64,000 bases of DNA from Saxidomus purpurata (taxonomy: Eukaryota > Mollusca > Bivalvia > Venerida > Veneridae). Of the stretch, positions 13,103-39,085 are shown one piece after another. The notes beneath the pieces are model-generated. The model saw only the letters and a list, made by a program, of their open reading frames with translations, made no database searches and was not told the origin of the DNA. The first letter of the stretch is position 1, and every line of letters starts with the position of its first letter. A program made the position numbers and the translations under genes. The stretch is from NCBI GenBank assembly GCA_022818135.1, contig JAFMSR010000016.1:8102324-8166323 (forward strand). Reading direction: 5' to 3'.

Positions 13103-16100
13103 TTAGACTATATCATATTTGCTCATGAAGTCTCCGAGTATTGCATCAAAAACGTGCCCACCCTTAGACACGCCCATCCTTTTGCTAATAGCTACTGCCT
13201 TCTCTCGTTCACCAAGACCTGTCCATATATTATACAAATTGGTCAAAGAAATTGGTGAACAACATCTTTCTTCAACTGGTACGTACAATGGCATCATTTC
13301 CCTAAATTCTTCTGTTTTGTTGATCGCAAAACAAAAATTATACAACTGGATATAGAGGTTTCGTAATACATGTACTCTCAGATTTGATGATGGTGACAAG
13401 TGGCATGAAACTGCTACCGATTTACCTTTATCTGGTCCTGCTGTACTATGCGACAAATCATTCGCAGTATCTGGAAGAACGAGAGACTCTCCTGCCAAAT
13501 CTGCATACTGCTTCAGACAAAATTTAATGCATCTAATGTACATTCTGTTGCTCACAATTTGAGAAAGGATATCCGAAACCTTCGAGAGAAATTCTAAATC
13601 GCCTTTTCTTATACTGAAGCATTCTGGGACTAAGGTATCCGGCAATTCTTCGAGGCAGTTTGGACCAAAAACCTCTGTCACATGGACTGTGTCATATCTG
13701 TCGCACAACTTTGCTGTCATTGTCGTCTGCTGTTTTATATCCACATACAGGGCAAAACACCACTGATAGCTTATATGCATTTCCCGAGACAGTTTCTTTA
13801 TCAAAGCAACACCATCTGTCCTCAAAGTGCCTCCCATTTCTTCTATAACATCCTGAAGAACTAACATAGCCCCGTGGAAATCTTCATTGTATATCAAGTT
13901 CTGAAGCAATTTTGTACATGCCGGTAACAATGTCTGGTCAGAGGGACATACTTTAGCGTCGGGTCGACCTTCAATAATGATGTTTTCAATGATCTCCTCC
14001 ACAAAACTTCCAATTTCTAACGACATTACATTCATCTGATCCAACAGGAAGTACACTGTTACTACCGGCTGAAGTCTTGCATTGTCTAGCCTCTTACTAC
14101 ATTCAGCGAGTGTTTTCTCGGGGATGAATTCTAATAAATTTTTCGCCCGCATGAAGTAATGTGGCACCAGACGACTCTTAAAGCATTCCGAAATTCTCTT
14201 CAGAAGTATCATTATGCATTCTCCAGGTTTCGATTTCCAAAGAGATTTGTCCAACTTCTCGCAAGCGTAAAAGAAAATACTTCTCACAACAGAAGATGGG
14301 AGTGGTATGCCTGTCAGCGTACTATCTACCAAAACCTTGAACACGAGAAAGCACTGTCTTTGTTCAGACGAAATAAAGCGGCAAATTTCTTTCTCAGCAG
14401 CAACAAATGAATAACACCAATTATGGTCATCCAACGAAGTTACAAAATGTACAGGATCATCCAGTACGTCCGCTAATTTTGCATCTGGCAATAAAGGAAC
14501 CACATGACAGCCTAATTCAACAACTGTATTTATCGTTCGCTGATCAGGAAAACCGTTTTCTCGAGAACGCCCTGGCCATTCTTTGGCAACTTCTGGCCAT
14601 TCAGACTTGAAGCCAATGGCTTTATAGAAATCGCCAATACTTTCTGTATGTTTCGGAAGAAAAATATCATGAAGGTTCTCATCATTTATTTCAAAAGTTT
14701 TCAAACATATTTTTTCCCCGTTCAAAGATATTGTCTGTCCTTTCCATAATGTCGGCTTTTTTGGGATCAGTAAAACCCGACCAACGACCGCTGCATCATT
14801 TTCAGCGATTAGATCAGTTGCTCCGGCAGATTCCATAGAATTAACAATCTCTGTATCATTTGGAGTCTGGAATAAAGTTAGAGTTTGTGTCTGAAAGCAC
14901 ACGTCTGCAGCATCTTCTTTCACTGATGGAAAAAATATGCTTATTTCTGGTCCTAAACTTTCAGTTTTTACTTTACATGGCACCAATTTGCACATGACTG
15001 AACCAAATATTTCGTTGACATAATCTTCTGCTTCAAATCGGCTTGGCACTAGAAGGTCTACAAACTTTGTACCTGAACTTTTGATTAAGTCCATTCGAAA
15101 AAGTTGCCTGAGTATAAGGTTCATATACTGCATTGGGCACGTTATCATGCAGTGCTCTTCAGGTGTATACGGGACCAAAGATTTCAAAGTATCTCGTCTA
15201 TCATTTAAACCTGAATATTTAAAGAAAATGACTACACTTGACATAAACCAAATAAAACTTCACACTAGCTACAGAAATACTTAAAATAGTGTCATATCGA
15301 GCATCAAGTGACATATTTTCACCAGCTTTCATTAGATGTTTAAATTAAATTTATAAAAATAAAACACCTCTATAGCCTATGTAAAGTATCATTACAAAAA
15401 CTAGATTAAATATTCTTAATTTGGTTGATCAAATCGACATTCCTAATCAGAGAACATAACAGAACATAAACCCACATATATTTTAAGCTGATATTGTCGT
15501 TCCATGTCAAAATTGAAATATAGCATACTTTTCAAAAGAGACTGTCTCCACTGTTTTGGGCGCAAGCTCATATAATGTGATTCGCTAACGTGTCCAATGT
15601 AAATCACACTGTTGTCGTCTAGTCGATCATTTTCGGCATCTGACTTCACACTTTCTCCTTAAATGAAATTATGAAATCTATTAATATACTGTGGATAGTT
15701 TAATGTGGCTGCGGTATGTATAAAATGCAGGCTTATCTAGTATATTACCATCAAGTTATACTGCCGTTTGAAATCTAAATGCATGAATTACCAGTTAAAA
15801 TACATAAATTACCAGTTAAATAAGACGAAGATTGTGTAACTTTTGTAATTTGAACAATTAATAAATAACCGTAAACTATACTACATGTATTCAAACATAT
15901 TGCGTTGGTCAATGCTAATTACCTGAAAGATCCTTTGGATACAGAATGGTTTCTCTTTGTCCAGTCAGTCCACCATATATAACAATCTGCATGTTTATCA
16001 CGTTGGAAAGAGCTCTAAAGAAAAGCAAGTCATAATATTCCTGTAAACTACTCAGATCCTTTTCTGGTCGTAAGACATGTTGGGGAACATGCATGAAATT

Positions 16101-18957
16101 AAATCAATAAATAACATCTTTTTCATTTTACACAACTTTTATTTATGAGTTCTCCTATTAATGTTAGGTTGTGTAAAATCTATCTACGGTATTATTCGCC
16201 AAATCTGCTACAGTAATATTGCACAGTCAGCTTGAATATATAATACTCTGATTCGATCTCAACTTTGATAAGAAAATTAAAATCATGTTATTTCCTCAGC
16301 AAGTTAATTACTATTACATGTAGATACATAATAGAAATAATGCAAACATATAGCATCATCGCGCAGCACGTATTAGTAATGACTACAGCATTCAATCAAA
16401 GAGCTTGATGAACGCATATGCTTCAACAGTGGTGAGAACTTCAATAAGCTGCTTATAGCTTCCAGTTCAATCCGCATTTGTATTATGTGTAAAATAATTA
16501 TCATGCTGTATAATATACGAATAATTCCGTGAAAAGAGAAAGTAGTTATATAAACATTTAGATGGATAAAACCCCTTGAAAGTGTTAGGCAGTATTGATA
16601 CAAATATCGCTACAATTTCTTTTACAATATTGAACAGTATATTAAATATGCTCACAAACTCTTATTTGATTGCATCATCGATAAAACTTGAAAATCACTA
16701 TGTCTTTTAATATTGACGTTATTTATTGATTTAATTAATAGGTTGAGATGAACCTGTTATACTACCTGAAAGTCTGCTCGTTTCCAGATTAAGGTTTTGC
16801 ATTTGTGTACGGAACTATGTGCTTTCATGTACATTTAACAATTAAAAAAAATAAACCATTTTTCAATAGTACGTCACCGTACTTTAAAAATTGAGATAAC
16901 GCCAGAGGAACGACTGTTAAAACTATAAAAAAAACGTTTACGTACTTTAATTATTTAAATTATTTAGACACACAATCGTTATGAACATGACATTCGTAAC
17001 ATGTGTTACCTAAGAATAATGTGGTCACCCCATTCTCCATCTTTGCTCATTCTGGTAAGATATGATTCCCAGGTTTCCTCATCTGTAAGAAACATATACA
17101 ATGGCGTCTCGTCGTCCTGAAAGTCAGTTCAGTCGGATGATACAGGACGCCTCAAATTCCAGGTCATTCTTACACGTGCATTTCTGATACTATTAGTTGA
17201 TACTATTCACGAGAATATGACTTGAAATGACAATCGGTTAAGAAACTAAACGGGAATTTCAGTCAACTTATAGAATATTATACATTCCGCTCACTATGAA
17301 AAGCAATCACATAAAACAATCAAGACATAATCCATGCCATTAGAAACGGTGATCCAGCGAAACCTTTATGGGTACTAAAATGCTGCATCAAGCCTTTATC
17401 AAATCAGTCATCTAATAATAGACAATGCCTAGTCTTGGACAATCGATACAGTCGTGCGATATTTTTTCGTTGAAATCAAAGGGATCAGGTGCGATACAAA
17501 TCATGACCTGAAATGATTTACTGACATGCAAAGGAGTATCTCTGACAGATGTTTATCTCTTTCATAAAACGGGAAAATATCAATAAGAAGGAAGTATTTC
17601 ATGTAATTCTATCATTTTGACAAAAACAGATACTAACTGCGTTTGGATATTTCGTCAGGTGATTCACCGCTGACTGCCTTAGACTATGCGTTGTGAAACT
17701 AAAGTCGCCACGGACACGCAGTTGGTCCACTATAGCGGCAAATAGACAGTTTCCGTCCGGGTACACATCATACGGCACCAGCTGTTTAGCTTCTATAAGT
17801 TCCCTCATCTGCCTTATCATCTTGCAAAAGGACGCCGTTGTTTGAACTTGGCCCCCACAAGCTTTAAAACGGGTAAATTATTTAATAACTAGTATTTGAA
17901 CATCGTTATTGTATCTACATTTAAATTATGTCCGGTATAAGATACATGTTTTGATATATAGTCCTTACTAAGATTCATTGACAAAAGTCACAGCTGTGGT
18001 TAGGACTGTACTCCTTTAGATCCCTTCATCAGTCTATGTAACAAAAACGTCTTTATTAATTCCATTCGTGTAGGCACAAGAAAAAATCTCTGTGCTTTCT
18101 ATTTAGTATGAATTAATAAACAGCGAAACACTTTCAGGTTAAAATGATTTACTTTTTTTATAGAAAATCAACCATGCGTAATAAGGCTGACCATGTTTAA
18201 GTATAGCCTCAACGATTTGTGATTTTTTTTTGGCTTTTCAGTCTGTATAAAATAGTAAGATATTTACTTTAATTATGTACTGGCTTATGCCTAAAGGTGT
18301 TAATGAACAGGTATCAAGCTCACTGTACATGTATTAATAATCATTCTTGGTACTAATTTCAGTAATTATCTCACTTAAATTAGTCAGACGTTAATTGTGT
18401 TATTGTATACACCTATGCAATAACAGTCTTTTAACTTACTTGAACACCTGCCGTTACTACTACCAGTTTCCCAACTCTTGAAAGAAGTCAAGTATTTTTC
18501 CCCGAGCTTTTCGTAGCACTGCATGCACGGCAATTCGAACGAGGGTACACCCATGAGCTTTGAATTCTCCAGGAATGCTGGTAGGTCATATCCATTTTCT
18601 TTTGCTATGCTCGCAATCATACTTAGAGGTGACATATCGCTTAAGCGCGTAGTGTCTCTACCTAGAGGAAACATGTTATGGTTTATCTAATATTATGATG
18701 TACAGATGACATGTTTTGGCATATCGGATTGGCGTTTCAGGCGATTTTACCCATTCGGTTTGTCCTGTGACTTTGGAACATGGTGGGGGTAAGAGTGAGG
18801 TTGGGTGCGCACCATAAACCGGTTTAAGCTCCCCAGTGGTGTTTTTGCCACTGACCGTTCCAAGGCGGTGCCCCCTGTGTTCCTTTTATTGTTCGTTTTG
18901 TCCTCGTGTGTTTGCTTGTATGCTAGTGTGTGTTGGTAGTGTATATGTGTGTGTTCA

Positions 18958-19025
<68 letters not shown>

Positions 19026-19810
19026 GGGGGGTGTGTGTTGTTGGTGTGTTGTGTGTGTGTTTGTGTGTGTGTGTGTGTTGTGTGGTGTGTGTTTTTTGGT
19101 GTGTGTGTGTTGTTGGTGTTGTGTTGGTTGTTTTGTTTTTTGTGGGTCCTTGGGTGATGTGGGGCTCGTTTTGGGAGGCTGCTTTTGGTCGTGGCTTCCC
19201 TTTTTTTTTTTTTTTGACAATATTTTTGCATCTTGCTATCATTTGTTTTCGAGATTTGATTTAATTTTAGTAAACATATACTTTAAAATTTCGTCACATT
19301 CCTATTTTATTTTCAAAGAAGACAAATAAATTACATCTCAGATAATATAAATTCTCTATAATTTAAAAGATCGATACTGTTTTAAAAAAAATATTTCTAC
19401 TTTACGAATGACACATAGACGAACTGAGTCCTGCCTGTTTTCTTCTTCAAAAGCCTCATATCCCTGGTCTTTTTCATTTTGCCAGCATTGTAGCTTTTCT
19501 GCGAAGCTGACTGTCCGTATATTTTTAGCGTTTTATATTCTTGAATGCGTGTTTTGTTCAGTGTGAGAGGTAAACAAACTAAATCGTCTTCGTTTAATGT
19601 CCATCCAGATTCAACAAGTTCCATATCGGCTTCTTCATGTTGAGGTTGTTGTGCTGCATTTTCATTTAAAAAAGTAGCATTGTCTGCACCAGGATGATCA
19701 AGTCTATCAAACATGACCGGGCTATATCTCTTTTCCATTGCAGGCATATCATTGGCACTTTCGTCTTCATTTTCACCGTGAGAATCATTGAATTCGTTGA
19801 CGAATAGCAT
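13103..19810 (-). CDS. OTU/Mab-21 fusion protein, copy 2
   Basis: Coding exons in transcript order: 19810-19435, 18661-18440, 17861-17638, 17116-17010, 16014-15923, 15657-15529 and 15210-13103. Joined phases are consistent and give 1085 residues. The OTU domain has the DGNC nucleophile motif (Cys about residue 238), a central W..YL..M/WGDHIILRALS block, and the HYMSLRP histidine motif (His about 368). The 2.1-kb last exon encodes a degenerate nucleotidyltransferase-like region followed by a Mab-21 helical domain (FKSEWPEVAKEW, GCHVVP, AAEKEICRF, FFYACEK, PHYF) and an alpha-helical C-terminus. Two differences from copy 1 matter. The ATG at the copy-1 start position is AGG here, so the first in-frame Met is at 19808-19810. 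The exon-1 donor is GC rather than GT (CAG|GCAGGA). A SINE-like element with a GT microsatellite sits in intron 1. Possibly a rare GC-AG intron, possibly early decay. Confidence 0.78.
18764..19214. mobile_element. SINE-like element with (GT)n core in intron 1 of copy 2
   Basis: About 450 bases interrupt CGGTTT...GACAATxTTT, which is continuous in unit 1 near 4403. The insert starts with CCTGTGACTTTGG, includes ACCATAAACCGGTTTAAGC, a GT run of about 31 units (18958-19022) with further GT-rich tracts, and ends in a T run of about 15. It is absent from copy 1, so insertion followed duplication. Confidence 0.8.
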
Positions 19811-22800
19811 ATCTGGAAAGCCGGGTCTGGAAACTGTAGGAATACTTTCGTCGCTTTCCGTGTCCCTGGTTATATCCGTGTCGTGGTTATAATTATCATG
19901 AAAAGTTCTGTCTGCTAATCATTCCGTGTCTTTGTTCTGTTGAAATAGAATTTGTGAATGTTTCGTATAGCATATTTCTTTGACTTAGCTTCTCCATCAC
20001 CTAAAAGTGTTTTTATATTTATATTTATTATTTAAATGTTATTACATTTGCCATCAACATGTCGTAAGATTAGAAACTCGTAAAGCAAATTCCCGCGAAC
20101 ATAGGAAAACCCTTAATATTCTTCCACATAACATGCAATACCGGTATTTTATTCCAACATTTACGGATGATAGCAATTATTACTTTACGTTTTGACTATA
20201 AGAATGAAACACAACAATTCATTATACCGTAACAACTTGCGTACGAACTTTTTCAGTAATAATAGATGTTTTAAAATATTAACTATTTTATATAATTTCC
20301 TTACCACAGCGTCCTTATAAATCGAAATAACCTTATGGTTAAAGATAACAATGTCTACTACATTTTATCAGCAACATCTACTCGTAAGAGAGACGTCGCA
20401 GAACTGACGAGAGAAAATCTGGAGGTGGATTAATAAAACAAACCAATAGAATTGGACCTTTCTCCAATAATCCATTCACACCTGTACAACAAATCAGACG
20501 ATTGGACAAACACCATGATACTAGACATACAGATATACATTGACGTGACATGCAGCGAAAAAAACCGAAGTGCGCCGAATTTGACGCATGCGCGTTGGTA
20601 ACGGCTATTCCAACTATGGAACGCCAGACCAGACGGTCCACTAAAATACTACCAAGGCAATGTAATTATATCGTTCATAATATTAGTGATTATAATAAAA
20701 GTGCGAAACAGAAACACTTCGAATTAGATACCAAATCGAAATTAGACCGTAGTAAGAGTTTAGTTTTGCTTTTTACTAACATCAATCAAAGCGCTAAAGG
20801 CACTGAATTTATGTGTCTCAAATCAAAGAGGGTTTGATGAGCTCTCATCTACTTAAAGTGGAAATTAAAACAAGTAATGAAAAGTTGCAGACTCATTTCG
20901 AAACTGTTTTACAAGAAAATGTCACTGTCAACATAATCATTAATAGAATTCCGATTAATTACTTTTCCCAAAAGAAAAAAGCAAATTATTCTGTTACAAC
21001 TTTTGTGATTTACAACTTTGATTAATCGCTCTCGATACTAACTAGATGGAATCAACCTCGAAGAGAGAGAGAGGTAATGTAAACATACATGTGTCTTGCC
21101 TACGACACTACCACCGTGGCGCTGGTGGGGATCGAACCCGGGACACTCCGATCCTGAGTCAAACACGCTACCCAACGGCGCCATTGCGGTCCGCTATAAC
21201 CGGTATACATATGATATTGACTACGGTCGATACCCAACAAATAATGACCTTAAATTTTGACCTTAAAATTAAAAAAGACATCTTTTCATCTTAGAAACAA
21301 AGACCTTAGTAAAATTAAATGAAGGTCTCTACAATGTTCGCGCACATGTCCAACGGTATAACCAAATGTTTCCTAGTTTTTTTTACTATTCATGGTCATC
21401 ATGACATCTAACCCAAACATACATGACTGATTCAAATGTCATGGTCAGCATCCCTACTAAGCTTGTATCTTCTAAGCCTAAGCTTTGTTTTGTTGACCCA
21501 AGGTCGACCTTCACCTTTGACCTAAATATCTGTAGTCTATATCTATAAGTATCTGTACACCTTTGATAATACAAGCGTTGACAAGTTCAGAAATTCGTTG
21601 TTTCAGGTTGAATTCCAATTTTCTCACCACGTTTTGTAATTTACAATTCAAAAGTACGTACTAGATTTATAGTAACCTTTATATATATAACCTTTAAAAT
21701 AGAACTGGTACACGTTAGAGCAGGACAACATAATTCACATACTTCATAAAACTATACGGTTAAACTAATACACGTACTACTGTTCAAAGTAATCATCATA
21801 GCAAGAAAGGCATTATCAATGAACGTTGCTAAAGTTATACAGCAATTGACTTTTAAGACACCTAGAGATTTCCATTTTTAACCAGTGTCAAGGAAACTTG
21901 ATGAAAGTATTTGATACTACGACGTCAAATCATAGAAAAGCGTTTAAGACTGTTAAGACGCTGGTTTACCTGAATCATGTTCATCTTTATTAAATGCTAG
22001 GTTGTTATGCTCGATCTTGTAAAAAACCTGTCAAGTGGTCAAATAGTTACAAAAACAGTATAAACATTGAGATACTAGACTATCCCCACAGGTAAGCACG
22101 GTTGCTTTGATAATTTCTAGGATGTGTTTGAAATTGAGTAACAATGTCATTAAGACAATTAGAAGTCACAAATCATGTAAATGTCTTAGCATGTCAGTCT
22201 TGATGTTCTCACGCTCAAGTTAAACTGAATCAGGCCCCCTAAATGTGCACGTGTTTCTGTTAGCGTAGGCCTTTGAAGTAAGGTTTTGAAACTTAATATA
22301 CTAACTTTTGACTTGTGGTGATAATTCACGCTTCATGATGGATTGTTATAATTTCTGGTACATCTCCCTTAAAATTTGTGATGTTGATTTGTGCTCAAGG
22401 ACACAGCTTACATGCCATTTACGACGTGAAATGGTGTCGTCCGGTATAATGTCACAGGATGGATCGAAATGGATTCCTTTTCTATAAGAGTGGTGATGTG
22501 AAATACCCGGGTCAGTAACATACCACATCATAAAAAAACGTTACGATTGTCTCGGGAAACAAACTGGAACACGACTAGCTAAAATGGCATAAACTGACTC
22601 CTTTTCTGAAGGTCTTGTCAGCACATTGCTTTCTATAATAGCTTCTCTCTGTGTTATGAGAAAATTTTCATGAGTGGCTGCGCCACTCGTGAAAATATCA
22701 CTTTTGGTACCCATTCGGTGAAATTATAACGTGATATTACACCGAAACCAACAATTACCCTCTACAAAATTTATATTAAACTATCGTCCAGCCTTAATTA

Positions 22801-25267: not shown

Positions 25268-28200
25268 TCATTCCATACTTGCATGTCTACCATAACACGT
25301 GCAACAATGCTTTGCTTTCTCGGTTTCACCTAACATGCTCCAGGCAAGCGCTAAGTCACGACAACTGCTGTGGTTCTCCTGAAGCTCAGTTATCGTAATT
25401 AAGCTAGGCATCAGATCTCTAAATTGTTCAGGCTGGCCAATGTCGTGGTACGTTTCGAGCAATGTCATGTACAAGTATTGTAGGCTCCTCAGCTTTCTAC
25501 GGCGACATGTCGATTGACCGTCTCCTATAACAATATCCTCACCTGCTATATCTTTATATGTGTCTAAATAATATCGCAAACATTTTACCACAAGTTTTGG
25601 CTTCCTTGCTTGTAACATAACATCAGCACTAACCGTGGGAAATTTTAAATCCCCACCAGAAATGCAGTATAACGCTGGAGTCGCAGTATTCGGCATATCA
25701 TCTTCAATACCTGGTCCAAATATTTCAGTTATATGCACAACGTCATATCCATCGGAGAGTCTTCTGGTTACAACAGAGCCTTTCATCAGGTCAATGTAGA
25801 GTCCAAAACACCATTGATAACCTACAGCCATCCCTGACAGCAGCATTTTTATGACACTGGCAAGGTCGATGGAAGATCTCGAAAAATGGCATATTTGCTC
25901 ATGTATGTCCTCCAGTGATAACATGGCATGATGAAATTCTCTTTGATGTATAAGACTTTCAATCAATGTGCCAGAAGCGGGAGTAAACGTTTCGTTGAAT
26001 GACCTAAGAATATTTTGATGACAATTGTATTTGGGTAGATCTTCTAGAATACTGTCGAACAAAGCACCAACTTCGGTGGCTGTTATGTCTTGCCTATCTA
26101 ATACGAAATACAAGGACACTACAAGCTGTCTAAATACGCTCTCAATGTTTCTCGACCATACTGCAATATGTTCTGAAAAAGCGTTTTGTAGCAAATTTTG
26201 TCCCGATATAAAGTAGTGAGGTATAAAAGACATCTGAAGCCCATTTTGGAGTTGTTGAAGCATTGCAACCAAACAACTTCCAGGCTGAAACTTCCATAGA
26301 TCTTCCTCCATATTTTCACACGCGTAAAAGAAGACACTCTTCGACAATGCGTCTGGTAACGGAGGGTCACAAATTGTGAAATCAACAAGTGATTTGAAAA
26401 GGAGAAAACAGCATCTCTGATTATTACAAAGATGGCTGCTAAGTTTGATCTCCGCAACTGCAAACGAGTAACTCCATAGTTCTTGACTATCTATCATTTC
26501 GGAACTGATATAACCATCAATGACGTTACACTGATTCTCATTTGAAGTGATAGGGACCACGTGGCATCCTTGTGACACAACTGTGTGTATAACATTTTCA
26601 TCCGGATAACGGCTTCTCCTTCCTCTTACAATCCATTCATTGGCGACATCTGGCCACTCGGACTTAAATGCCAGGACTCTGTGAAAAGTAAGCTGCTCAT
26701 TTTCATGGCAGAAAGGTATATCCTCCATTGGAAAGCACTGGATATCGATCGCCCTAAGGCAAACTGTGCCCGTACTAGATTGCATTGTTTGACCCTTCCA
26801 AATGTCCGGTGCAACAGGCTGTAATCTCAAATGAGACAACCCTGAAGTGGACAATTCGGGCAGAAGATCAAACACCTTTCTCCCGGAACTTCTGTCCTGG
26901 ACAACAGAATCGGATGGAGTTTGAAAGGCTGTAATAACTGAGCAACTGCTTGGTGCCATATATTGATCACTTGGAAAGAATATGTTTATATCTATAGACA
27001 TACTTTCGCTTTTACTATTGAAATCCGGGGCCATTTTACACATGATTGGTCCCACAAGAGTAACTATAAATTTCGATCGGTGATCGTCATCGTGCACTGG
27101 CATCTCGGACATGTATGACATATAGCTCGATAAGTATTCCAGCTGGAATGTGTTTCTAAGGATAAAGTCAATATGCTGAACTGGCACGATAATGTTCTGC
27201 GCTGGATCAAGGTCTTCAGACTTTTGCTGCTGCCTTTCTTGTAGTACTTGGTAATTTGCTGAAACGATCAGACGGAAGAAAATCTGAATGAAACGTAAAA
27301 TTAACAGTACATGTATATTGCTTTTATAGGACAAATGTAGTATAAAATATGGGTACGAACAAGAAGTAAACTACATGTATTACTGAGACTGTCTACTTTG
27401 CAAAATGCATTTTACCCGCAAAGTAGGCTATGTTCCATGAATAGTTGAACAACTTCAGGACAGAAACCAATGCATTGACTGACTGAAATAATTTCAGCGA
27501 GATAGCAATTGATAATAGTACAATTAAAGAAAGTTAGTAATATAAAGTACATGCAGTTATGTGTCTTTAACTATGGGATTTATGGACATGTTCATTTTAA
27601 ATACTAGTATGATATAATTATGTTGACATATCGGCACTTTAATGTCTGGTTCTTTGCTTAAATTGGACATCTAACAAGCTCGCATTTTAATACATTGAAA
27701 CAACGTAGTCTATGCCACTTTGTTGTAACCAAAAGTATACAGTATATACACAGTATATGCATGCTTGTTTCCATAGGAAGAATGCGGTGTTACTTTGGAG
27801 AAACGGCAATAGCTATAAACTTTGTGTAGTATGGCATACTAGCCTAAAATGGATCTGACCGTGAGACCGTACATAAAAGAAACTAATTCCTAGTTGAGTT
27901 ACCAAAAACTCTCCTCAGCGGTTACTTCCCCTTACAGTTTATACAGCTCAACCAAACAAATCGCTTAAAACAAAGAGTTTGGACTTGACATTTACGCCGG
28001 CACATGACGAAACCAAAGTGTTTCAAAATGCATTTGAACGTACCACAACCTCATCACATACAAAAGAATTGGCCAAGAAAATCGGACATATCACTAATAT
28101 GTCAATACTACATACTTTCTTGTAAATGATGTAGTCACTTATATGTCAATAATACATACTTTCTTGTAAATGATGTAGTCACTAATATGTCAATAATACA

Positions 28201-31200
28201 TACTTTCGTGTAAATGATGTAGTCACTAATATGTCAATAATACATACTTTCTTGTAAATGATGTAACCAATTCTCTGGGCGAAGACTGACATAATGTTCT
28301 CCTAAATGTCCAAGATATATTGTCGGAAAACTTCTGTTCTTCTCTTGTGTTTCTGCCTCTGCTGACTGTTCTTCTGAAATACACATTTACAATATACTTT
28401 TAAGACTTTTAAGTTTGTTTTTAATTTACAGATTTAACTCGTAATATACGTTTCGAAAATATCAATATAAATTGTGTCAAGCATATCTAAACATATCTAT
28501 ATGTGATATATGAAGTTACAAGTTACATTTCTTCGTCGAATCGATCGAACAGCTATTTATCAAATTTACCTTTTGAACATTGTTCTATCACACAAAAAGA
28601 TTATGATATTACACGAAGTCTTTACCTAATAGGAACACTTGTACTAGCAAAGAGTATACAAATCAATGGCAGTTATAATATCTCTGAGACAGATCAGCGA
28701 ACCGCAAGGAACGAGAGCAGTATAAATGGTCTGACACAGATCCATAGGATGTAAAACAATCTAAGAAATTGCCGACGTATAGCACAGCTACTATAAATAC
28801 GCATTTAGTATTCAATAAGTTTTGAGACTGGCCTTATAAAATAAGACCAAAGCTGATTTACGACAACATTTATTATATCAGTCCATTTAACAAGCAATCA
28901 CTTTCCAATCCGAGATATCCATGACCTGAAAGCCACAGAGAAGACACTGTATGTAGACACTGATAGTCTGATACACAGCACTGCAAATAGCGATTCGACT
29001 TGTAGTGACCTGACACCCAATTCTGATTGTATGTAGACACTGATACACAGCACTGCAAATAGCGAATCTGGACTTGTAGCGACGAACAGCAAGCATCTTT
29101 TTTCAGTATAAGAAAAAGAAAGAAGTCACAGGGACTCGGGTCTCATGGGTATGCAGGGTACTGCAATAGTTGGACTTGTTGGACCCACAGAAACTGCTTC
29201 ACGATACATGTATTACTCTTGAGTGCATATGCATTTTCATGGACAAGACAGATACCCCTCTAACCAGTTCTTGGGCGAAGCTTAACATAACGTTTTTTCA
29301 CCGATTTCAATATTCTATCTCAATATAACTTGCAACTGATCTGCCAGGTGCACTGTCGTGTTATTTGCACAACAGGACCTGAACTTAAGTTTGTTTTGCT
29401 GTAAATGGTCTGAGAAACTGTATCACGCGAGGGCTTCTACATCAGCCATGTCTTTAGAAGACAATGAAGTTTACACGGGGTAGGTCTTTGACTCTATATT
29501 CTCCTTATTAAATACGTTTACCCACTCATAAAATGTGGCTTTGAAAGGAGAAGAATCACCATAAATATTTTAACTTCTGATAGAATCCGTTTACCTTGTA
29601 TATTCAAAGCACTACGCATATATATGTAAGACCTAATTTTCTTCTTTTCTGCAGGCTTCATGCTTACAAAAATAGTGTCAGTATAATAATTTCTACGGAA
29701 GCGCGTTTGTCTCAAAACTTGTTGAATACCCCTCGTATACACATACTGTATTTATCAGGTGAAATGACGGTCTCTGTTTCTCCACTTCTTCCACCATAAA
29801 TTACAATATGGGTCTGTAAAACATTCGCGAGAGCGCTGAAATATCAGACAAAATACTCTTCTAAATCATTTTAACAAATACTATTTATCTAATTCGACAA
29901 AGAGACAATAAATATTATATGTATACAGTTCTAGAAGGTAGATATGGCGAATATTAAAACACTGCATGGTTTGAAAGGCACATTGTATACCACCAATTAT
30001 ATATTATGCTATATGTATTAACACTAATTATGTTATATGTATTAAAAGAAACTGCCAAACCGTTTGTCCGAAGTTACGGGAAACTAGTCTGTCTCTGTCG
30101 CATGTAATAATTAATAATACGTTACCTTTATACCGCATGGTGTATACAGTTTAAACGAATTTAATGAAGAAATCGTAACAATACATATGTAATAAAGTAT
30201 CATACCTTAGAACCATGTGGTCTCCCCACTGGCCGTCCTCGCTCATACGGTTCAAATAACCTTCCCAGCACTCGTTTGTAAGGAACATTTCGAAATGGGT
30301 TCCGTCCTCCTACAAGAATATACACAATTTCTATCACGTTTGAAAGTATACTCTTTCAATAATAAAGTTAATAGCAATTCAAACAGCTAAGAGACTTTTG
30401 TTTAATTGGATTTGAGTCAGCTATCGAACATGTCTCTTTGCGTGAGCAAGTTGACAGTTTATGAATACGAAAGATAGGAGTACAGAGCTGGTCCTTCGGA
30501 GGAACGAGGTATAGGTTAACTACCCCCGGTAGATAACTTTGCAGTGCAGCTGCACTTGTTTTACAATACCCCCACTACCATGTAGATAACTTTGCAGTGC
30601 AGCTGCACTTGTTTTAAAATACCCCCACTACCATGTAGATAACTTTGCAGTGCAGCTGCACTTGTTTTACAATACCCCCACTACCATGTAGATAACTTTG
30701 CAGTGCAGCTGCACTTGTTTTACAATATCCCCATCATCATGTAGATAACTTTGCAGTGCAGCTGCACTTGTTTTACAATATCCCCATCATCATGTAGGTA
30801 ACTTTGCAGTGCAGCTGCACTTGTTTTACAATATCCCCATCATCATGTAGATAACTTTGCAGTGCAGCTGCACTTGTTTTACAATATCCCCACCACCACG
30901 TAGGTAACTTTGCAGTGCAGCTGCACTTGTTTTACAATACCCCCACCACCATGTAGGTAACTTTGCAGTGCAGCTGCACTTGTTTTACAATACCCCCACC
31001 ACCACGTAGGTAACTTTGCAGTGCAGCTGCACTTGTTTTACAATACCCCCACCATCATGTAGGTAACTTTGCAGTGCAGCTGTACTTGTTTTACAATATC
31101 CCCATCATCATGTAGGTAACTTTGCAGTGCAGCTGCACTTGTTTTACAATATCCCCATCATCATGTAGATAACTTTGCAGTGCAGCTGCACTTGTTTTAC

Positions 31201-34200
31201 AATATCCCCACCACCACGTAGGTAACTTTGCAGTGCAGCTGCACTTGTTTTACAATACCCCCACCATCATGTAGGTAACTTTGCAGTGCAGCTGTACTTG
31301 TTTTACAATATCCCCACCATCATGTAGATAACTTTGCAGTGCAGCTGCACTTGTTTTACAATATCCCCACCATCATGTAGATAACTTTGCAGTGCAGCTG
31401 CACTTGTTTTACAATACCCCCACCATCATGTAGGTAACTTTGCAGTGCAGCTGCACTTGTTTTACAATACCCCATCATCATGTAGGTAACTTTGCAGTGC
31501 AGCTGCACTTGTTTTACAATATCCCCATCATCATGTAGATAACTTTTGCAGTGCAGCTGCCTTGTTTTACAATATCCCCACCACCACGTAGGTAACTTTG
31601 CAGTGCAGCTGCACTGTTTTACAATACCCCCACCATCATGTAGGTAACTTTGCAGTGCAGCTGTACTTGTTTTACAATATCCCCACCATCATGTAGATAA
31701 CTTTGCAGTGCAGCTGCACTTGTTTTACAATATCCCCACCATCATGTAGATAACTTTGCAGTGCAGCTGCACTTGTTTTACAATACCCCCACCATCATGT
31801 AGGTAACTTTGCAGTGCAGCTGTACTTGTTTTACAATATCCCCACCATCATGTAGATAACTTTGCAGTGCAGCTGTACTTGTTTTACAATATCCCCACCA
31901 CCACGTAGGTAACTTTGCAGTGCAGCTGCACTTGTTTTACAATACCCCCACCATCATGTAGGTAACTTTGCAGTGCAGCTGTACTTGTTTTACAATACCC
32001 CCACCATCATGTAGGTAACTTTGCAGTGCAGCTGCACTTGTTTTAAAATACCCCCACTACCATGTAGATAACTTTGCAGTGCAGCTGCACTTGTTTTACA
32101 ATACCCCCACTACCATGTAGATAACTTTGCAGTGCAGCTGCACTTGTTTTACAATATCCCCACCATCATGTAGATAACTTTGCAGTGCAGCTGCACTTGT
32201 TTTACAATATCCCCATCATCATGTAGGTAACTTTGCAGTGCAGCTGCACTTGTTTTACAATACCCCCACCACCATGTAGGTAACTTTGCAGTGCAGCTGC
32301 ACTTGTTTTACAATACCCCCACCACCATGTAGGTAACTTTGCAGTGCAGCTGCACTTGTTTTACAATACCCCCACCATCATGTAGGTAACTTTGCAGTGC
32401 AGCTGTACTTGTTTTACAATACCCCCACCACCACGTAGGTAACTTTGCAGTGCAGCTGCACTTGTTTTACAATATCCCCATCATCATGTAGATAACTTTG
32501 CAGTGCAGCTGCACTTGTTTTACAATAACCCCACCATCATGTAGATAACTTTGCAGTGCAGCTGCACTTGTTTTACAATATCCCCATCATCATGTAGGTA
32601 ACTTTGCAGTGCAGCTGCACTTGTTTTACAATACCCCCACCACCATGTAGGTAACTTTGCAGTGCAGCTGCACTTGTTTTACAATACCCCCACCATCATG
32701 TAGGTAACTTTGCAGTGCAGCTGTACTTGTTTTACAATACCCCCACCACCACGTAGGTAACTTTGCAGTGCAGCTGCACTTGTTTTACAATACCCCCACC
32801 ACCACGTAGGTAACTTTGCAGTGCAGCTGCACTTGTTTTACAATACCCCCACCACCACGTAGGTAACTTTGCAGCGCAGCTGCACTTGTTTTACAATACC
32901 CCCACCACCATGTAGGTAACTTTGCAGCGCAGCTGCACTGTTTTACAATACCCCCACCACCACGTAGGTAACTTTTGCAGCGCAGCTGCACTTGTTTTAC
33001 AATACCCCCACCACCACGTAGGTAACTTTGCAGTGCAGCTGCAGCGCTTGTTTTACAATACCCCCACCACCACGTAGGTAACTTTGCAGTGCAGCTGCAC
33101 TGTTTTCAATACCCCCACCACCACGTAGGTAACTTTGCAGCGCAGCTGCACTTGTTTTACAATACCCCCACCACCATGTAGGTAACTTTGCAGCGCAGCT
33201 GCACTTGTTTTACAATAACCCCACCACCACGTAGGTAACTTTGCAGCGCAGCTGCACTTGTTTTACAATACCCCCACCACCATGTAGGTAACTTTGCAGC
33301 GCAGCTGCACTTGTTTTACAATACCCCCACCACCATGTAGGTAACTTTGCAGCGCAGCTGCACTTGTTTTACAATACCCCCACCACCATGTAGGTAACTT
33401 TGCAGTGCAGCTGCACTTGTTTTACAATACCCCCACCACCACGTAGGTAACTTTGCAGTGCAGCTGCACTTGTTTTACAATAACCCCACCACCACGTAGG
33501 TAACTTTGCAGCGCAGCTGCACTTGTTTTACAATAACCCCACCACCACGTAGGTAAATTTGCAGCGCAGCTGCACTTGTTTTACAATACCCCCACCACCA
33601 TGTAGGTAACTTTGCAGCGCAGCTGCACTTGTTTTACAATACCCCCACCACCATGTAGGTAACTTTGCAGTGCAGCTGCACTTGTTTTCAATACCCCCAC
33701 CACCACGTAGGTAACTTTGCAGCGCAGCTGCACTTGTTTTACAATAACCCCACCACCACGTAGGTAACTTTGCAGCGCAGCTGCACTTGTTTCAATCCCC
33801 CACCACCATGTAGGTAACTTTGCAGTGCAGCTGCACTTGTTTTACAATACCCCCACCACCACGTAGGTAACTTTGCAGCGCAGCTGCACTTGTTTTACAA
33901 TAACCCCACCACCACGTAGGTAACTTTGCAGCGCAGCTGCACTGTTTTACAATCCCCCACCACCATGTAGGTAACTTTGCAGCGCAGCTGCACTTGTTTT
34001 ACAATACCCCCACCACCATGTAGGTAACTTTGCAGCGCAGCTGCACTTGTTTTACAATAACCCCACCACCACGTAGGTAACTTTGCAGCGCAGCTGCACT
34101 TGTTTTACAATACCCCCACCACCATGTAGGTAACTTTGCAGTGCAGCTGCACTTGTTTTACAATACCCCCACCACCACGTAGGTAACTTTGCAGCGCAGC

Positions 34201-37200
34201 TGCACTTGTTTTACAATAACCCCACCACCACGTAGGTAACTTTGCAGCGCAGCTGCACTTGTTTTACAATACCCCCACCACCATGTAGGTAACTTTGCAG
34301 CGCAGCTGCACTTGTTTTACAATATCCCCACCACCATGTAGGTAACTTTGCAGCGCAGCTGCACTTGTTTTACAATACCCCCACCACCACGTAGGTAACT
34401 TTGCAGCGCAGCTGCACTTGTTTTACAATAACCCCACCACCATGTAGGTAACTTTGCAGTGCAGCTGCACTTGTTTTACAATACCCCCACCACCACGTAG
34501 GTAACTTTGCAGCGCAGCTGCACTTGTTTTACAATAACCCCACCACCACGTAGGTAACTTTGCAGCGCAGCTGCCTTGTTTTACAATACCCCACCACCAT
34601 GTAGGTAACTTTGCAGCGCAGCTGCACTTGTTTTACAATATCCCCACCACCATGTAGGTAACTTTGCAGCGCAGCTGCACTTGTTTTACAATACCCCCAC
34701 CACCACGTAGGTAACTTTGCAGCGCAGCTGCACTTGTTTTACAATACCCCCACCACCACGTAGGTAACTTTGCAGCGCAGCTGCACTTGTTTTACAATAA
34801 CCCCACCACCACGTAGGTAACTTTGCAGCGCAGCTGCACTTGTTTTACAATACCCCCACCACCATGTAGGTAACTTTGCAGCGCAGCTGCACTTGTTTTC
34901 AATATCCCCACCACCATGTAGGTAACTTTGCAGCGCAGCTGCACTTGTTTTACAATACCCCCACCACCATGTAGGTAACTTTGCAGCGCAGCTGCACTTG
35001 TTTTACAATACCCCCACCACCATGTAGGTAACTTTGCAGCGCAGCTGCACTTGTTTTACAATACCCCCACCACCATGTAGGTAACTTTGCAGTGCAGCTG
35101 CACTTGTTTTACAATACCCCCACCACCATGTAGGTAACTTTGCAGCGCAGCTGCACTTGTTTTACAATATCCCCACCACCATGTAGGTAACTTTGCAGTG
35201 CAGCTGCACTTGTTTTACAATACCCCCACCACCATGTAGGTAACTTTGCAGCGCAGCTGCACTTGTTTTACAATATCCCCACCACCATGTAGGTAACTTT
35301 GCAGCGCAGCTGCACTTGTTTTACAATACCCCCACCACCATGTAGGTAACTTTGCAGCGCAGCTGCACTTGTTTTACAATACCCCCACCACCATGTAGGT
35401 AACTTTGCAGCGCAGCTGCACTTGTTTTACAATACCCCCACCACCATGTAGGTAACCCCTTTGCAGTGCAGCTGCACTTGTTTTACAATACCCCACCACC
35501 ATGTAGGTAACTTTGCAGCGCAGCTGCACTTGTTTTACAATACCCCCACCACCATGTAGGTAACTTTGCAGTGCAGCTGCACTTGTTTTACAATACCCCC
35601 ACCACCACGTAGGTAACTTTGCAGTGCAGCTGCACTTGTTTTACAATACCCCCACCACCACGTAGGTAACTTTGCAGCGCAGCTGCACTTGTTTTACAAT
35701 ACCCCCACCACCACGTAGGTAACTTTGCAGCGCAGCTGCACTTGTTTTACAATAACCCCACCATCATGTAGGTAACTTTGCAGCGCAGCTGCACTTGTTT
35801 TACAATACCCCCACCACCACGTAGGTAACTTTGCAGTGCAGCTGCAATTGTTTTACAATACCCCCACCACCACGTAGGTAACTTTGCAGTGCAGCTGCAC
35901 TTGTTTTACAATACCCCCACCACCACGTAGGTAACTTTGCAGTGCAGCTGCACTTGTTTTACAATACCCCCACCACCACGTAGGTAACTTTGCAGTGCAG
36001 CTGCACTTGTTTTACAATACCCCCACCACCACGTAGGTAACTTTGAAGTGCAGCTGCACTTGTTTTACAATATCCCCATCACCACGAAGGTAACTTTGCA
36101 GTGCAGCTGCACTTGTTTTACAATACCCCCACCACCACGTAGGTAACTTTGCAGTGCAGCTGCAGTTGTTTTACAATATCCCCACCATCATGTTGGTAAC
36201 TTTGCAGTGCAGCTGCACTTGTTTTACAATACCCCCACCACCATGTAGGTAACTTTGCAGTGCAGCTGCACTTGTTTTACAACACCCCCACCACCATGTA
36301 GATAACTTTGTAGCACAGCTGCGCTTGTTTTATAAAAAATCTTATTTGTTAGACGCTGTTTAACACAGGTACGACTTACTTTGAGCCAAAGAAACCTTTA
36401 TGACTGTGTAGTAATAAGACAACTTACCGCTGTTGGATTTTCCCTCAGATAATCAACAACAGCCTTCCTTAAGCCAACGACTGTATATCTGAAGTCACCA
36501 CGCACTCGAAGCTGGTCTACCACAGTTCCAAACATGCAGTTCCCATCCGGGTACACATCACGAATAACGAGCTTTTTCTCTTCTAATATTTTCCGCAGTT
36601 TGGAAATCATTTTACCCAGTGACGCCAAAGTCTGCAACTCTCCTCCACATCCTGAAAACAGTTTTATGACACTTCACGGTACCTGTTCCACAAATAGAAG
36701 AGCTCAAATACGAAGCTCGTACAACTTAGATACAGTAAACTCCGTATATAACGAACTCATGAATACAATTTAAATTTTATGCTTATACCCGGAGTGTGTT
36801 ATATCCATACAGCATTTTCGTTTTAGATAAAGAAGGAATAAATATCGGGTTCAGAACATTTGTTCCTTATATCCAAAATTTCGCTATATCCGAAGTCGTT
36901 ATATATGGAGTTTATTGTAAAGATTAATTAATGTCCTCTATTAAAAGCACAATTAGCTATAGAAGTATTTTGAAAGTACATTTATTTAGTATTACAATGT
37001 ATTTAAGTGGTCATGCCTTTTTATTCTAATAGGCAAGACTATACTTTGGTATGCTTTAAACTCGTCACATGAAATACCTACTTTGGCATCTTCCGGCTAC
37101 TGATTGTCCATATCCGAGTAGGAATTCTCTGGCAATTTCATCTGGACTGGCACCTCCAATGCACTGCATGCATGGCATGTTCGAAGGCAATCCAAGCATC

Positions 37201-39085
37201 TCGGCACTTTCTAACACCATTGTTATATCAAGCCCCATTTCCTTAACAATTTTTACAAGGAAGGAGAAAGGCGAATTCATCATAGCGGCGGCTTCAGAGA
37301 ATCGGAGTGCCCTTGACTCCTCTCTTTCTTTGTTTAGTACTGAAAAATGTTGAATACGGCCTTGAGTGTGATACGATTAAATCTTTTTTCTCATTAGCTT
37401 GTATGAAAGTTACAAAAATGTCTTTACAAAATAGATTATAACGCTATACTTTCAGGTTATCTGTTTCAGTAGATTATAACGCTATACTTTCAGGTTATCT
37501 GTTTCAGTAGATTATAACGCTATACTTTCAGGTTATCTGTTTCAGTACCTGTTACGTGTATATTCAAGGAAAATTCCTGACAAACATTAGTCCTAGTTCA
37601 GCGCTATATTTCAATACATATTTACTTACGTTTCTTCACTCGCCTATGAAACATACGAGGTACCTTCCTAGCCATCGGTTTTGTTCTTTTACAATGTGTA
37701 CGTCTGTGCTGAGCAAATTCATCCTCATATCTTTCAAAAAATGTTTCATCCAATGGAGCTCCTTTCAAAAAATTTGGGCAAACAATGTAATCCCATATCG
37801 TCCATTTTTCATTCCACAGCTCGAAGTCAGATATACCGGAAGCATCCGACTGGCCTCCACGTGTCATACACGATGCCATAGAAACGTTCCTTCGTTCAGA
37901 CTTTGTGTTGACATGAGAGCCAAAGCCATGGTGATTTGCAATATCATCTGCTTCATTATAAATACCGCCTGTTGTCTTATTTCTATAAATATCCGATGCT
38001 GACTGAGACTCCACATCTCGCGAGACATTGGATGGTCTTGTCATATGCTTGTTAGTTTCGTGAGATCGTACTTGCAACCTCTCATTTCGGATCACGTATT
38101 CTTTCGATGTTCTGTCTGACTGCTGAAATGCGCTGTGGATCGAAGAGGAGTTTGAAGATGAGCCAGTAGGACTCTTTGAATACAAATCTGTATTTGTCGA
38201 TGACTGGAAGTTAGGGTTTGATTGGCTTAAAATCTGCTGACTAGACCTGAGGTTTGTCTGCGTACTATTGAAATATCCGGATTCTGATTGCGCTGACAAT
38301 TGTACTAAATTACTCTCAGAATATGTATGCGACTGTTTTTTCTTGCTTTTTATTCCCTTGTTTAAGATATCGCAATCGAGGTGCCTTTCTTCTAGCATAT
38401 GTTGTGAGCTGTCCGGAATTTGCCGGCTTCCCAAGATGGGTTGTCCGGAAGATACACGTTCTTTTAACCTTGTATTGGTACTTCTTGTATTATTGCGTTT
38501 CATTCTAGTTTCATCGCCAATGCGAGGAGTGTTTCTGACGGGGATTACGTTTTTGTGCTTTTTTGAAGGCTGAGATGTGGTTTTCCAGCTTTCTAATTCA
38601 TCATCATCAGAGAAACTACATTCGTCTTCACTATCTGTTTCGGAATAATCAGAACAACTCGAACACATTGACGGACACTGTTCATCGATTACAATTAACA
38701 AATCTTTAAGATCGACTGTTTCGAGTGTCTCGTTTTGGGAGAGCCGATCTGTCTGACCGGTTTTATTGCCAGTGTCTTGCATATCCCCCTCGCTGCGTGT
38801 AAGGTATGAAAAGCAACCTTTTTCTCTGTTGAGTACATAGTTTGAAAAGTCCGAATCTCCTAAATTCATCTTAAAACTATCTTGTCGCAATAACACACAT
38901 GGCGTCGAACTATTTGTGTTCCTTACGGCACTAATAACTTGATCGTGGTCAATATCATCTTCAGAGTCCGAAAACTGATTTACGAAAACTTTTGGAGAGT
39001 CCATCTCATCCGACTCTCTGTCAGAGGACACGCCGCGGTCTTCAGCTGTCGAAGTATTTATACCTGCCTTGATTTTACAATCCAT
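25268..39085 (-). CDS. OTU/Mab-21 fusion protein, copy 3 (most complete)
   Basis: Seven coding exons in transcript order: 39085-37630, 37339-37082, 36651-36428, 30309-30206, 29835-29747, 28373-28248 and 27258-25268. All junctions are GT-AG and in phase, giving about 1415 residues. Residues 1-485 are Ser/Asn-rich and probably disordered, ending in a basic stretch (HRRVKK). A small conserved module with LPCMQC follows. The OTU domain spans about 595-745, with Asp607-Gly-Asn-Cys610 and His737 (EHYVSLRP). A Mab-21-like module follows (WPDVANEW near 953-960, GCHVVPI, helical repeats to the stop). The catalytic nucleotidyltransferase pattern is eroded (VGP, then DIN). The first visible Met is at 39083-39085, but the frame stays open to an acceptor at 39138/39139, so an upstream coding exon is possible. 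The intron after exon 3 holds the 53-bp satellite. Inferred role: ubiquitin-linked innate immune signalling; substrate unknown. Confidence 0.82.
27258..28373 (-). other. Exon 6 of OTU/Mab-21 copy 3 and tandemly repeated splice donors
   Basis: Exon 6 (28373-28248) carries the OTU histidine motif and ends AAGAAA|GTATGT. A 44-bp tandem repeat starts within the exon end and repeats the same donor context. Intronic copies of the donor G lie at 28203, 28159 and 28115 in addition to 28247. The next exon's acceptor (TTTCAG|CAAAT) is at 27258/27259. Use of any downstream donor would run into an in-frame TGA just after the first donor. Confidence 0.7.
28092..28267. repeat. 44-bp tandem repeat, 4 copies
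   Basis: Four near-identical units that include 'TGTAAATGATGTAGTCACT' follow one another with 44-bp spacing. The right-most unit overlaps the 3' end of exon 6 of OTU/Mab-21 copy 3, so the array has amplified an exon-intron boundary. Confidence 0.9.
28949..29089. repeat. Two-copy direct repeat in intron 5 of OTU/Mab-21 copy 3
   Basis: GTATGTAGACACTGATA followed by ACACAGCACTGCAAATAGCG occurs twice about 80 bases apart, with an insert in the first copy. Confidence 0.75.
30531..36335. repeat. 53-bp satellite array, about 110 copies
   Basis: A head-to-tail array of a 53-bp unit fills 5.8 kb of the intron between exons 3 and 4 of OTU/Mab-21 copy 3. Every unit contains the 14-bp palindrome AGTGCAGCTGCACT, or the one-base variant AGCGCAGCTGCACT, around an E-box core CAGCTG. 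Units also carry a C-rich tract (ACCCCCACCACCA). Variant classes are regionally sorted: TAGATAAC/GTG types are common at the left, and TAGGTAAC/GCG types dominate about 32.87-35.8 kb. Edge units are more divergent (for example GTAGCACAGCTGCGC near 36310). No open frame persists, since 53 is not a multiple of three. Confidence 0.98.
36731..36919. mobile_element. Pogo/Tigger-like MITE in intron 2 of OTU/Mab-21 copy 3
   Basis: Inverted ends TACAGTAAACTCCGTATATA and the reverse of a matching TATATGGAGTTTATTGTA flank 189 bases. CAGTAAACTC...TATAACGA ends are typical of pogo/Tigger-derived MITEs. Confidence 0.8.
37433..37546. repeat. 38-bp tandem repeat, 3 copies
   Basis: Three identical units starting AGATTATAACGCTATACTTT in the first coding intron of OTU/Mab-21 copy 3. 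Confidence 0.95.

Follow-up and report, generated by a model that had tools for sequence, protein, structure and literature searches.

A 64,000-nucleotide stretch of the Saxidomus purpurata genome (1.135 Gb in 4,232 contigs), referred to here as the window (contig JAFMSR010000016.1, abbreviated C16; C16:8102324-8166323), carries a gene, designated A, whose exons join to encode one protein of 1,415 residues. In this protein a predicted OTU cysteine protease precedes a fold shaped like that of cGAS and MB21D2. Computation showed the gene structure and domain content, the coinheritance of both domains, and motifs that are conserved in OTU but degenerate in the nucleotidyltransferase (NTase) fold. 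We give somewhat better than an even chance to the reading that A and its relatives are OTU deubiquitinases guided by a dead cGAS, probably in innate immune signaling.

Structure of gene A

Conceptual splicing of seven minus-strand exons gives in-frame joins throughout, and all six introns have GT...AG ends. A preliminary description of this DNA had proposed the 1,415-residue model and the exon ends at 28248 and 27258; both were reproduced exactly and in frame. The exons, in window positions, are as follows.

37630..39085, minus strand: exon 1, start ATG and low-complexity, Ser- and acid-rich N terminus, ending near VPRMFHRR (open frame, GT donor)
37082..37339, minus strand: exon 2, conserved segment with CMQC, the first CxxC pair of a putative zinc knuckle of four cysteines (in-frame join, AG/GT)
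36428..36651, minus strand: exon 3, second CxxC (over the junction) and OTU catalytic Asp/Cys, PDGNC (motif scan, join, Pfam OTU)
30206..30309, minus strand: exon 4, middle of OTU, WGDH motif (join, Pfam OTU)
29747..29835, minus strand: exon 5, OTU strand segment IVIYGG (join, Pfam OTU)
28248..28373, minus strand: exon 6, OTU catalytic His, HYVSLRP (motif scan, join)
25268..27258, minus strand: exon 7, two-lobed cGAS/Mab-21 fold, helical tail, and stop

The VPRMFHRR segment of exon 1 is also present in P0001 (P0001 to P0060 are the labels of protein relatives retrieved by similarity searches), and relatives match gene A across the 2/3, 3/4, and 4/5 exon junctions.

Introns 1 to 6 are 290, 430, 6,118, 370, 1,373, and 989 bases long. 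A satellite array of 53-bp units (positions 30529-36332; about 110 copies, 95% match) occupies most of the 6.1-kb intron 3, which interrupts the OTU coding region. Within intron 5 (28808-29729), two inverted arms of 21 nt each, 95% complementary and separated by 880 nt, have a small-transposon-like arrangement, which we take to resemble mariner elements. Four 44-bp tandem copies at 28091-28265 extend over the last part of exon 6 and the adjoining GT donor; because the donor at 28248 is repeated by these copies, alternative donors are possible in gene A.

The OTU protease part

The spliced OTU segments of A match the Pfam OTU profile (PF02338; cut-off, 23.3 bits) with 69.4 bits (E, 5.5e-19), and those of two further copies in the window, B and C, match with 55.4 and 55.3 bits, respectively (E, 1.2e-14 each). 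As the preliminary description had stated, the DGNC and HYxSLRP motifs lie on small exons in all three copies: a motif scan located DGNC at 36547 (A), 17757 (B), and 3208 (C) and HYxSLRP at 28296 (A), 15577 (B), and 1507 (C), all on the minus strand. With profile scores above the cut-off and the catalytic motifs in place, A, B, and C are assigned by sequence to the OTU family. The basis of this assignment is sequence profiles, the structure-search lists being filled by the cGAS-like part; the nearest solved OTU structures are those of OTUD5 (E, 1e-06), OTUD2 (E, 3.2e-06), and OTUD1 (E, 0.0012).

The Asp/Cys and His motifs are present in all 52 of the OTU-bearing proteins among the 60 retrieved, with variants in P0055 and P0057 (DENC and YHIFSFR), in the pectinid proteins P0038 and P0049 (HFVSLR), and in the four Mytilus proteins (HYVSMR). 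In a 25-row alignment, D235, C238, and H375 (P0004 numbering) are invariant. Gene A is missing one residue that B, C, and the relatives in the alignment have directly before the catalytic His. Just upstream of the OTU part, gene A encodes two cysteine pairs: CMQC in exon 2 and, spanning the exon 2/3 junction, CxxCGG. By eye, both CxxC pairs recur in P0001 to P0004, and in the remaining relatives the cysteines are differently spaced or missing. The pairs may form a zinc knuckle.

The cGAS-like part and its degenerate NTase site

Exon 7 matches the Mab-21_C profile (cut-off, 24.1 bits) in both A (39.6 bits; E, 5.9e-10) and B (47.6 bits; E, 2e-12); the companion NTase profile, PF03281, gave 16.5 bits for A and 12.3 bits for B, both under the cut-off. 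Matches to ASK_PH, Sipho_tail, and similar Pfam families were also under the cut-off and were disregarded. In the predicted structure and fold search, exon 7 has a two-lobed NTase core and a helical lobe, spanning residues ~21 to 391 of the exon protein, with a degenerate metal site, followed by a helical tail of ~270 residues. The preliminary description had taken this 2-kb exon for a Mab-21 helical domain; the Mab-21 match stands, and the helical-domain-only reading is rejected in favor of a complete cGAS-like fold. Its best fold match is MB21D2, less than 1 Z unit from cGAS. Over the Mab part, a profile of 25 relatives matched cGLR1 (8gjy; E, 5.6e-36), MB21D2 (2.1e-25), and MAB21L1 (2.2e-16).

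Catalytic cGAS-like receptors (cGLRs) have a metal-site acid pair, [D/E]x[D/E], for which exon 7 offers two candidate places. The first is the strand that follows a low-confidence loop in the model (residues 106 to 114, SVITAFQTP); the alignment giving this site agrees with the predicted strands. Here A has V-I-T, B has T-L-T, P0025 has D-V-T, and P0026 has D-V-V, and the second acid is missing in 25/25 relatives. The other is a loop at residues 89 to 91, where A has D-I-N and B and C have E-I-S; the alignment giving this site misplaced the acid pair in three unfused controls, P0058 to P0060. Among 20 fused rows at the loop site (A, B, C, and 17 of the 49 fused proteins retrieved), none has both acids, eight have the first only, three have neither, and nine are gapped. 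No third metal-binding acid is conserved in the aligned stretch, where the alignment is poor. The GS-motif glycine is invariant in the 25-row alignment. By eye, unfused proteins keep the pair: SDVD in Lamellibrachia P0054, FDFD in P0058, PDID in P0059, and SDDD in P0060. As aligned, then, A, B, and the fused relatives lack the complete acid pair of catalytic cGLRs, and the preliminary description's proposal of a Mab-21 scaffold fits this degenerate site.

Relatives and history of the fusion

A search with residues 486 to 1415 retrieved 37 proteins, for 35 of which the precomputed domain column lists OTU as well as Mab-21_C; a profile search retrieved 23, of which 21 have both, and exon 7 alone retrieved 11, of which three have both. 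Together these are 60 distinct proteins, including 49 with both domains. The profile search scored the best 7,993 candidates sharing the most words, so fusions may also occur outside bivalves. Names are attached to 37 of the 49, from 16 genera: Mercenaria, Mya, Dreissena, Potamilus, Saccostrea, Sinanodonta, Solemya, Pecten, Ylistrum, Mizuhopecten, Pinctada, Tegillarca, Ostrea, Mytilus, Ruditapes, and Mactra. Six of these (Solemya, Potamilus, Sinanodonta, Tegillarca, Mercenaria, and Dreissena) were verified as Bivalvia, Solemya being a protobranch, and the other ten are presumably bivalves as well. The closest named relatives are from Mercenaria and Mya.

Exceptions in the domain column are P0037 and P0050, with OTU without Mab-21_C; P0006, with Mab-21_C without OTU, yet keeping both OTU motifs; and Lamellibrachia P0054, with Mab-21 domains without OTU. 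An extra N-terminal finger is found in P0003 of Mya arenaria (RING-like; E, 1.9e-4, under the cut-off) and in P0015 of Solemya velum (FYVE-type; E, 1.4e-6, above the cut-off).

Twelve of the 49 fused proteins are tagged “lgn,” and in 11 of them the frame makes up 82 to 94% of the longest contig of the cluster (39% in P0033). Since a gene built like A could not otherwise fill such a contig, the “lgn” contigs appear to derive from RNA.

Trees were built from 34 rows and, separately, from the OTU and Mab parts (31 rows each); all are quick, midpoint-rooted trees with no bootstrap, and long branches meet in both domain trees. The same three main groups appear in all of them. Group 1 (13 rows; 14 in the 34-row tree) comprises heterodont and unionid proteins together with A, B, and C; group 2 (four rows; six in the 34-row tree; 89% support in the Mab tree) is pteriomorph; and group 3 (14 rows) holds proteins of Solemya, mussel, scallops, oysters, unionids, and venerids. 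Branching inside the groups is resolved only in part and in part differs between trees. Most simply read, the two domains were fused once, before the bivalve crown, and were then inherited jointly, with expansion coming later. OTU and Mab-21 in one polypeptide, as first proposed from the window alone, is thus well supported by the joins, the relatives with both domains, and the matching domain trees.

Copies B to F and the tandem array

The preliminary description had counted three copies and given them all the interval 25268..39085. A, B, and C exist; the interval is that of A only, and three further copies lie within 50 kb to the left of the window, making six in total.

19406..19867, minus strand: copy B, exon-1-like N-terminal region, join to exon 2 unsettled (by-eye similarity to the N terminus of Mercenaria P0002)
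18440..18661, minus strand: copy B exon 2, CMQC segment
17638..17861, minus strand: copy B exon 3, OTU Asp/Cys (motif scan, join, Pfam OTU)
17010..17116, minus strand: copy B exon 4 (in-frame join)
15923..16014, minus strand: copy B exon 5 (in-frame join)
15529..15657, minus strand: copy B exon 6, OTU His (motif scan, join)
13103..15210, minus strand: copy B exon 7, cGAS-like fold and tail (Mab-21_C, 2e-12; in-frame join)
4076..5017, minus strand: copy C, exon-1/exon-2-like sequence, splice join unsettled
3089..3312, minus strand: copy C exon 3, OTU Asp/Cys (motif scan, join, Pfam OTU)
2633..2739, minus strand: copy C exon 4 (in-frame join)
1854..1945, minus strand: copy C exon 5 (in-frame join)
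1459..1587, minus strand: copy C exon 6, OTU His (motif scan, join)
1..1136, minus strand: copy C exon 7, in-window part (frame open onward to C16:8101388, beyond the window edge)
C16:8088846-8093884, left of the window: copy D
C16:8076021-8080091, left of the window: copy E
C16:8066207-8071004, left of the window: copy F

In B and C, exons 3 to 7 share order and phases with those of A, and their joins are free of internal stops. The in-phase joins claimed for all three paralogues therefore hold for the seven exons of A and for exons 3 to 7 of B and C; with the boundaries tried, exons 1 and 2 of B and C gave no in-phase join, and by eye the acceptor AG of B for this join is missing in C. Copy E keeps the letters of DGNC in exon 3 (C16:8080618) in an otherwise broken reading frame and reads as a decaying copy inside the array. 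In copy F, the frame of exon 7 shifts near its end.

B and C are identical at 515/562 residues, A and B at only 305/836; between A and B, synonymous sites are saturated, and nonsynonymous divergence (Ka) is 0.39 for OTU and 0.70 for the Mab part. The difference in identity rules out a recent triplication, which is also contradicted by the tree, where A groups with P0001 and B and C group with P0002, P0004, and P0005 of Mercenaria.

Proposed function and alternatives

Each intact gene would give one large protein consisting of a low-complexity N terminus, a putative zinc knuckle, OTU, a cGAS/MB21D2-shaped fold, and a helical tail. Ubiquitin chains are the most likely substrate of the OTU part. 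The cGAS-like part, having apparently lost its metal-binding acid pair, would no longer make a second messenger and may instead recognize a ligand or protein partner, thereby bringing the deubiquitinase to its target. The two halves differ in a way that fits a surface for recognition or scaffolding: OTU conservation is that of an enzyme, whereas the cGAS half keeps its shape, is more divergent between copies, and is missing the acid pair required for catalysis. The setting is probably innate immune signaling; of the two settings considered, this is the likelier because the genes are tandemly expanded and change rapidly and because there is a precedent in mammals, where OTUD3 acts on cGAS (PMC13194595).

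Several observations weigh against this interpretation. The residue-level match of relatives is gappy at the exon 6/7 junction itself. The one-residue deletion by the His means that A itself could be weak or dead, and the constraint on exon 7 of B to F is real yet loose. P0051, an exon-7-only relative of A, has D-I-D at the less likely loop site. The stretch around the NTase site is weakly conserved, and residues there were equated by sequence alignment and predicted strands. Finally, the 14-row clade, which reaches to Solemya and branches much as bivalve phylogeny does, would suit a nonimmune role as well.

The alternative that fares best takes the last point as its start: the same protein would be a housekeeping or developmental deubiquitinase in which the Mab-21-like part is a protein-interaction scaffold. 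Such branching is expected of a conserved single gene, and MB21D2 ranks first among the fold matches of exon 7, though by the small margin over cGAS given above. However, the group found in the window is tandemly expanded and fast diverging, which is less usual for housekeeping genes, and we regard the nonimmune role as unlikely, if the most serious contender.

A more ambitious form of the favored dead-cGAS-guided deubiquitinase is a bivalve class of receptor-deubiquitinases, in which a nonsynthesizing cGAS fold senses a ligand and signals within the chain to OTU, some members having the RING-like or FYVE-type finger. We put this forward tentatively and consider it doubtful.

It is improbable that the window copies are functionless, decaying duplicates and that only a conserved orthologue elsewhere works. 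The broken exon 3 of E, the frame change in F, the residue missing by the His in A, and the unsettled exon 1-2 joins of B and C, including the acceptor AG absent from C, all point in that direction. However, exon 7 is stop-free over 695, 684, and 684 matched codons in B, C, and D, respectively; its ratio of nonsynonymous to synonymous divergence (Ka/Ks) is 0.30 to 0.76 and thus <1 in all ten pairs of B to F; and the A-B alignment persists over its full 836 residues despite the synonymous saturation.

Quite improbable, too, is a cGAS-like part that is still an enzyme with a rearranged metal site, in a protein that both senses and signals. The complete two-lobed fold, the first acid kept in several rows, and the two acids of P0051 at one candidate site are consistent with it, but P0051 has P-V-L-T at the strand site, both acids occur in 0/25 fused proteins at that site and in 0/20 at the other (9/20 gapped), and the third position is without a conserved acid.

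That OTU and Mab-21 are separate genes whose fusion is a prediction error is very improbable: P0051 to P0053, close relatives of A, have exon-7-type sequence only, but P0053 looks genomic, with an apparent intron before the exon-7 acceptor (by eye), and we rejected this reading on the presence of both parts on cDNA-like contigs, the matching junctions, and the agreement of the domain trees.

Neighboring cGAS-like genes

Two cGAS-like genes adjoin the OTU-Mab-21 array, at 49700-52515 and 57182-59699, ~10 to 21 kb from gene A, and a third lies just right of the window at C16:8178445-8179805. The two in the window carry GSSREGLKVSEADEFDAL or GSSREGLRVSKADEFDAL and DVDIVP motifs; unlike those of the fused proteins, the catalytic motifs of the cluster (EFD and DVD) are apparently intact. 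Against the Mab-21 NTase profile, the hand-spliced gene at 49.7 to 52.5 kb scored 23.0 bits (E, 9.2e-05; cut-off, 24.1). The genome has at least 150 Mab-21_C matches (the best 150 of 502 candidates scored), many of those listed being in local clusters and in open frames of ~700 codons. Because such matches are so numerous, the neighborhood is weak evidence for a functional link such as the immune regulation of these genes that the preliminary description had suggested as possible.

Relation to known systems and significance

OTUD-type deubiquitinases likewise have an OTU domain with Asp/Cys and His motifs; unlike in those proteins, OTU here is one part of the 1,415-residue product of gene A. 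We know of no OTUD-type protein that carries a cGAS-like module. MB21D2 and Mab-21-like proteins (7lt1 and 5eog) are without OTU, and MB21D2 is counted among proteins with complete putative active sites in the cGLR survey (PMC9980059), whereas the active site of the fused proteins is incomplete. The fused proteins differ from cGAS and the animal cGLRs (oyster Cv-cGLR1, 8gjw; coral Sp-cGLR1, 8gjy) in both the incomplete acid pair and the fused OTU. Sections of the same survey, which is limited to proteins with complete putative active sites, report cGLR fusions to ankyrin, tetratricopeptide repeat, and death domains, and its main text does not mention OTU or ubiquitin.

Type II CBASS, in which Cap2 and Cap3 accompany a cGAS/DncV-like nucleotidyltransferase (CD-NTase), likewise couples a cGAS-like protein to ubiquitin-type modification. 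The parallel drawn in the preliminary description holds for this theme only: Cap3 is a JAB/JAMM deconjugase from a separate ancillary gene (PMC10449767), and here the peptidase found is an OTU cysteine protease, and the listed Pfam matches include no JAB family.

It had also been left open whether bivalve gene models already hold the architecture. They do, and the search for OTU and Mab-21 in one protein yielded the 49 proteins above; in the records retrieved, these are named only “uncharacterized,” “hypothetical,” or “OTU domain-containing.” None of the hits of a literature search, with subscription papers and bioRxiv preprints mostly outside its scope, was listed as describing an OTU-Mab-21 fusion. 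Each domain is known singly; what is new is their combination, how old it is, and that one active site has been lost while the other is kept.

Mammals are known to control cGAS by ubiquitin editing. Here, a predicted ubiquitin editor and a cGAS-shaped module are inherited as one protein, in animals very rich in cGAS-like genes. The family is present in many bivalves, farmed ones included, and offers a testable case of a pseudo-cGAS serving as a targeting device. If the receptor-deubiquitinase reading were true, sensing and the writing or erasing of ubiquitin would be combined in one molecule.

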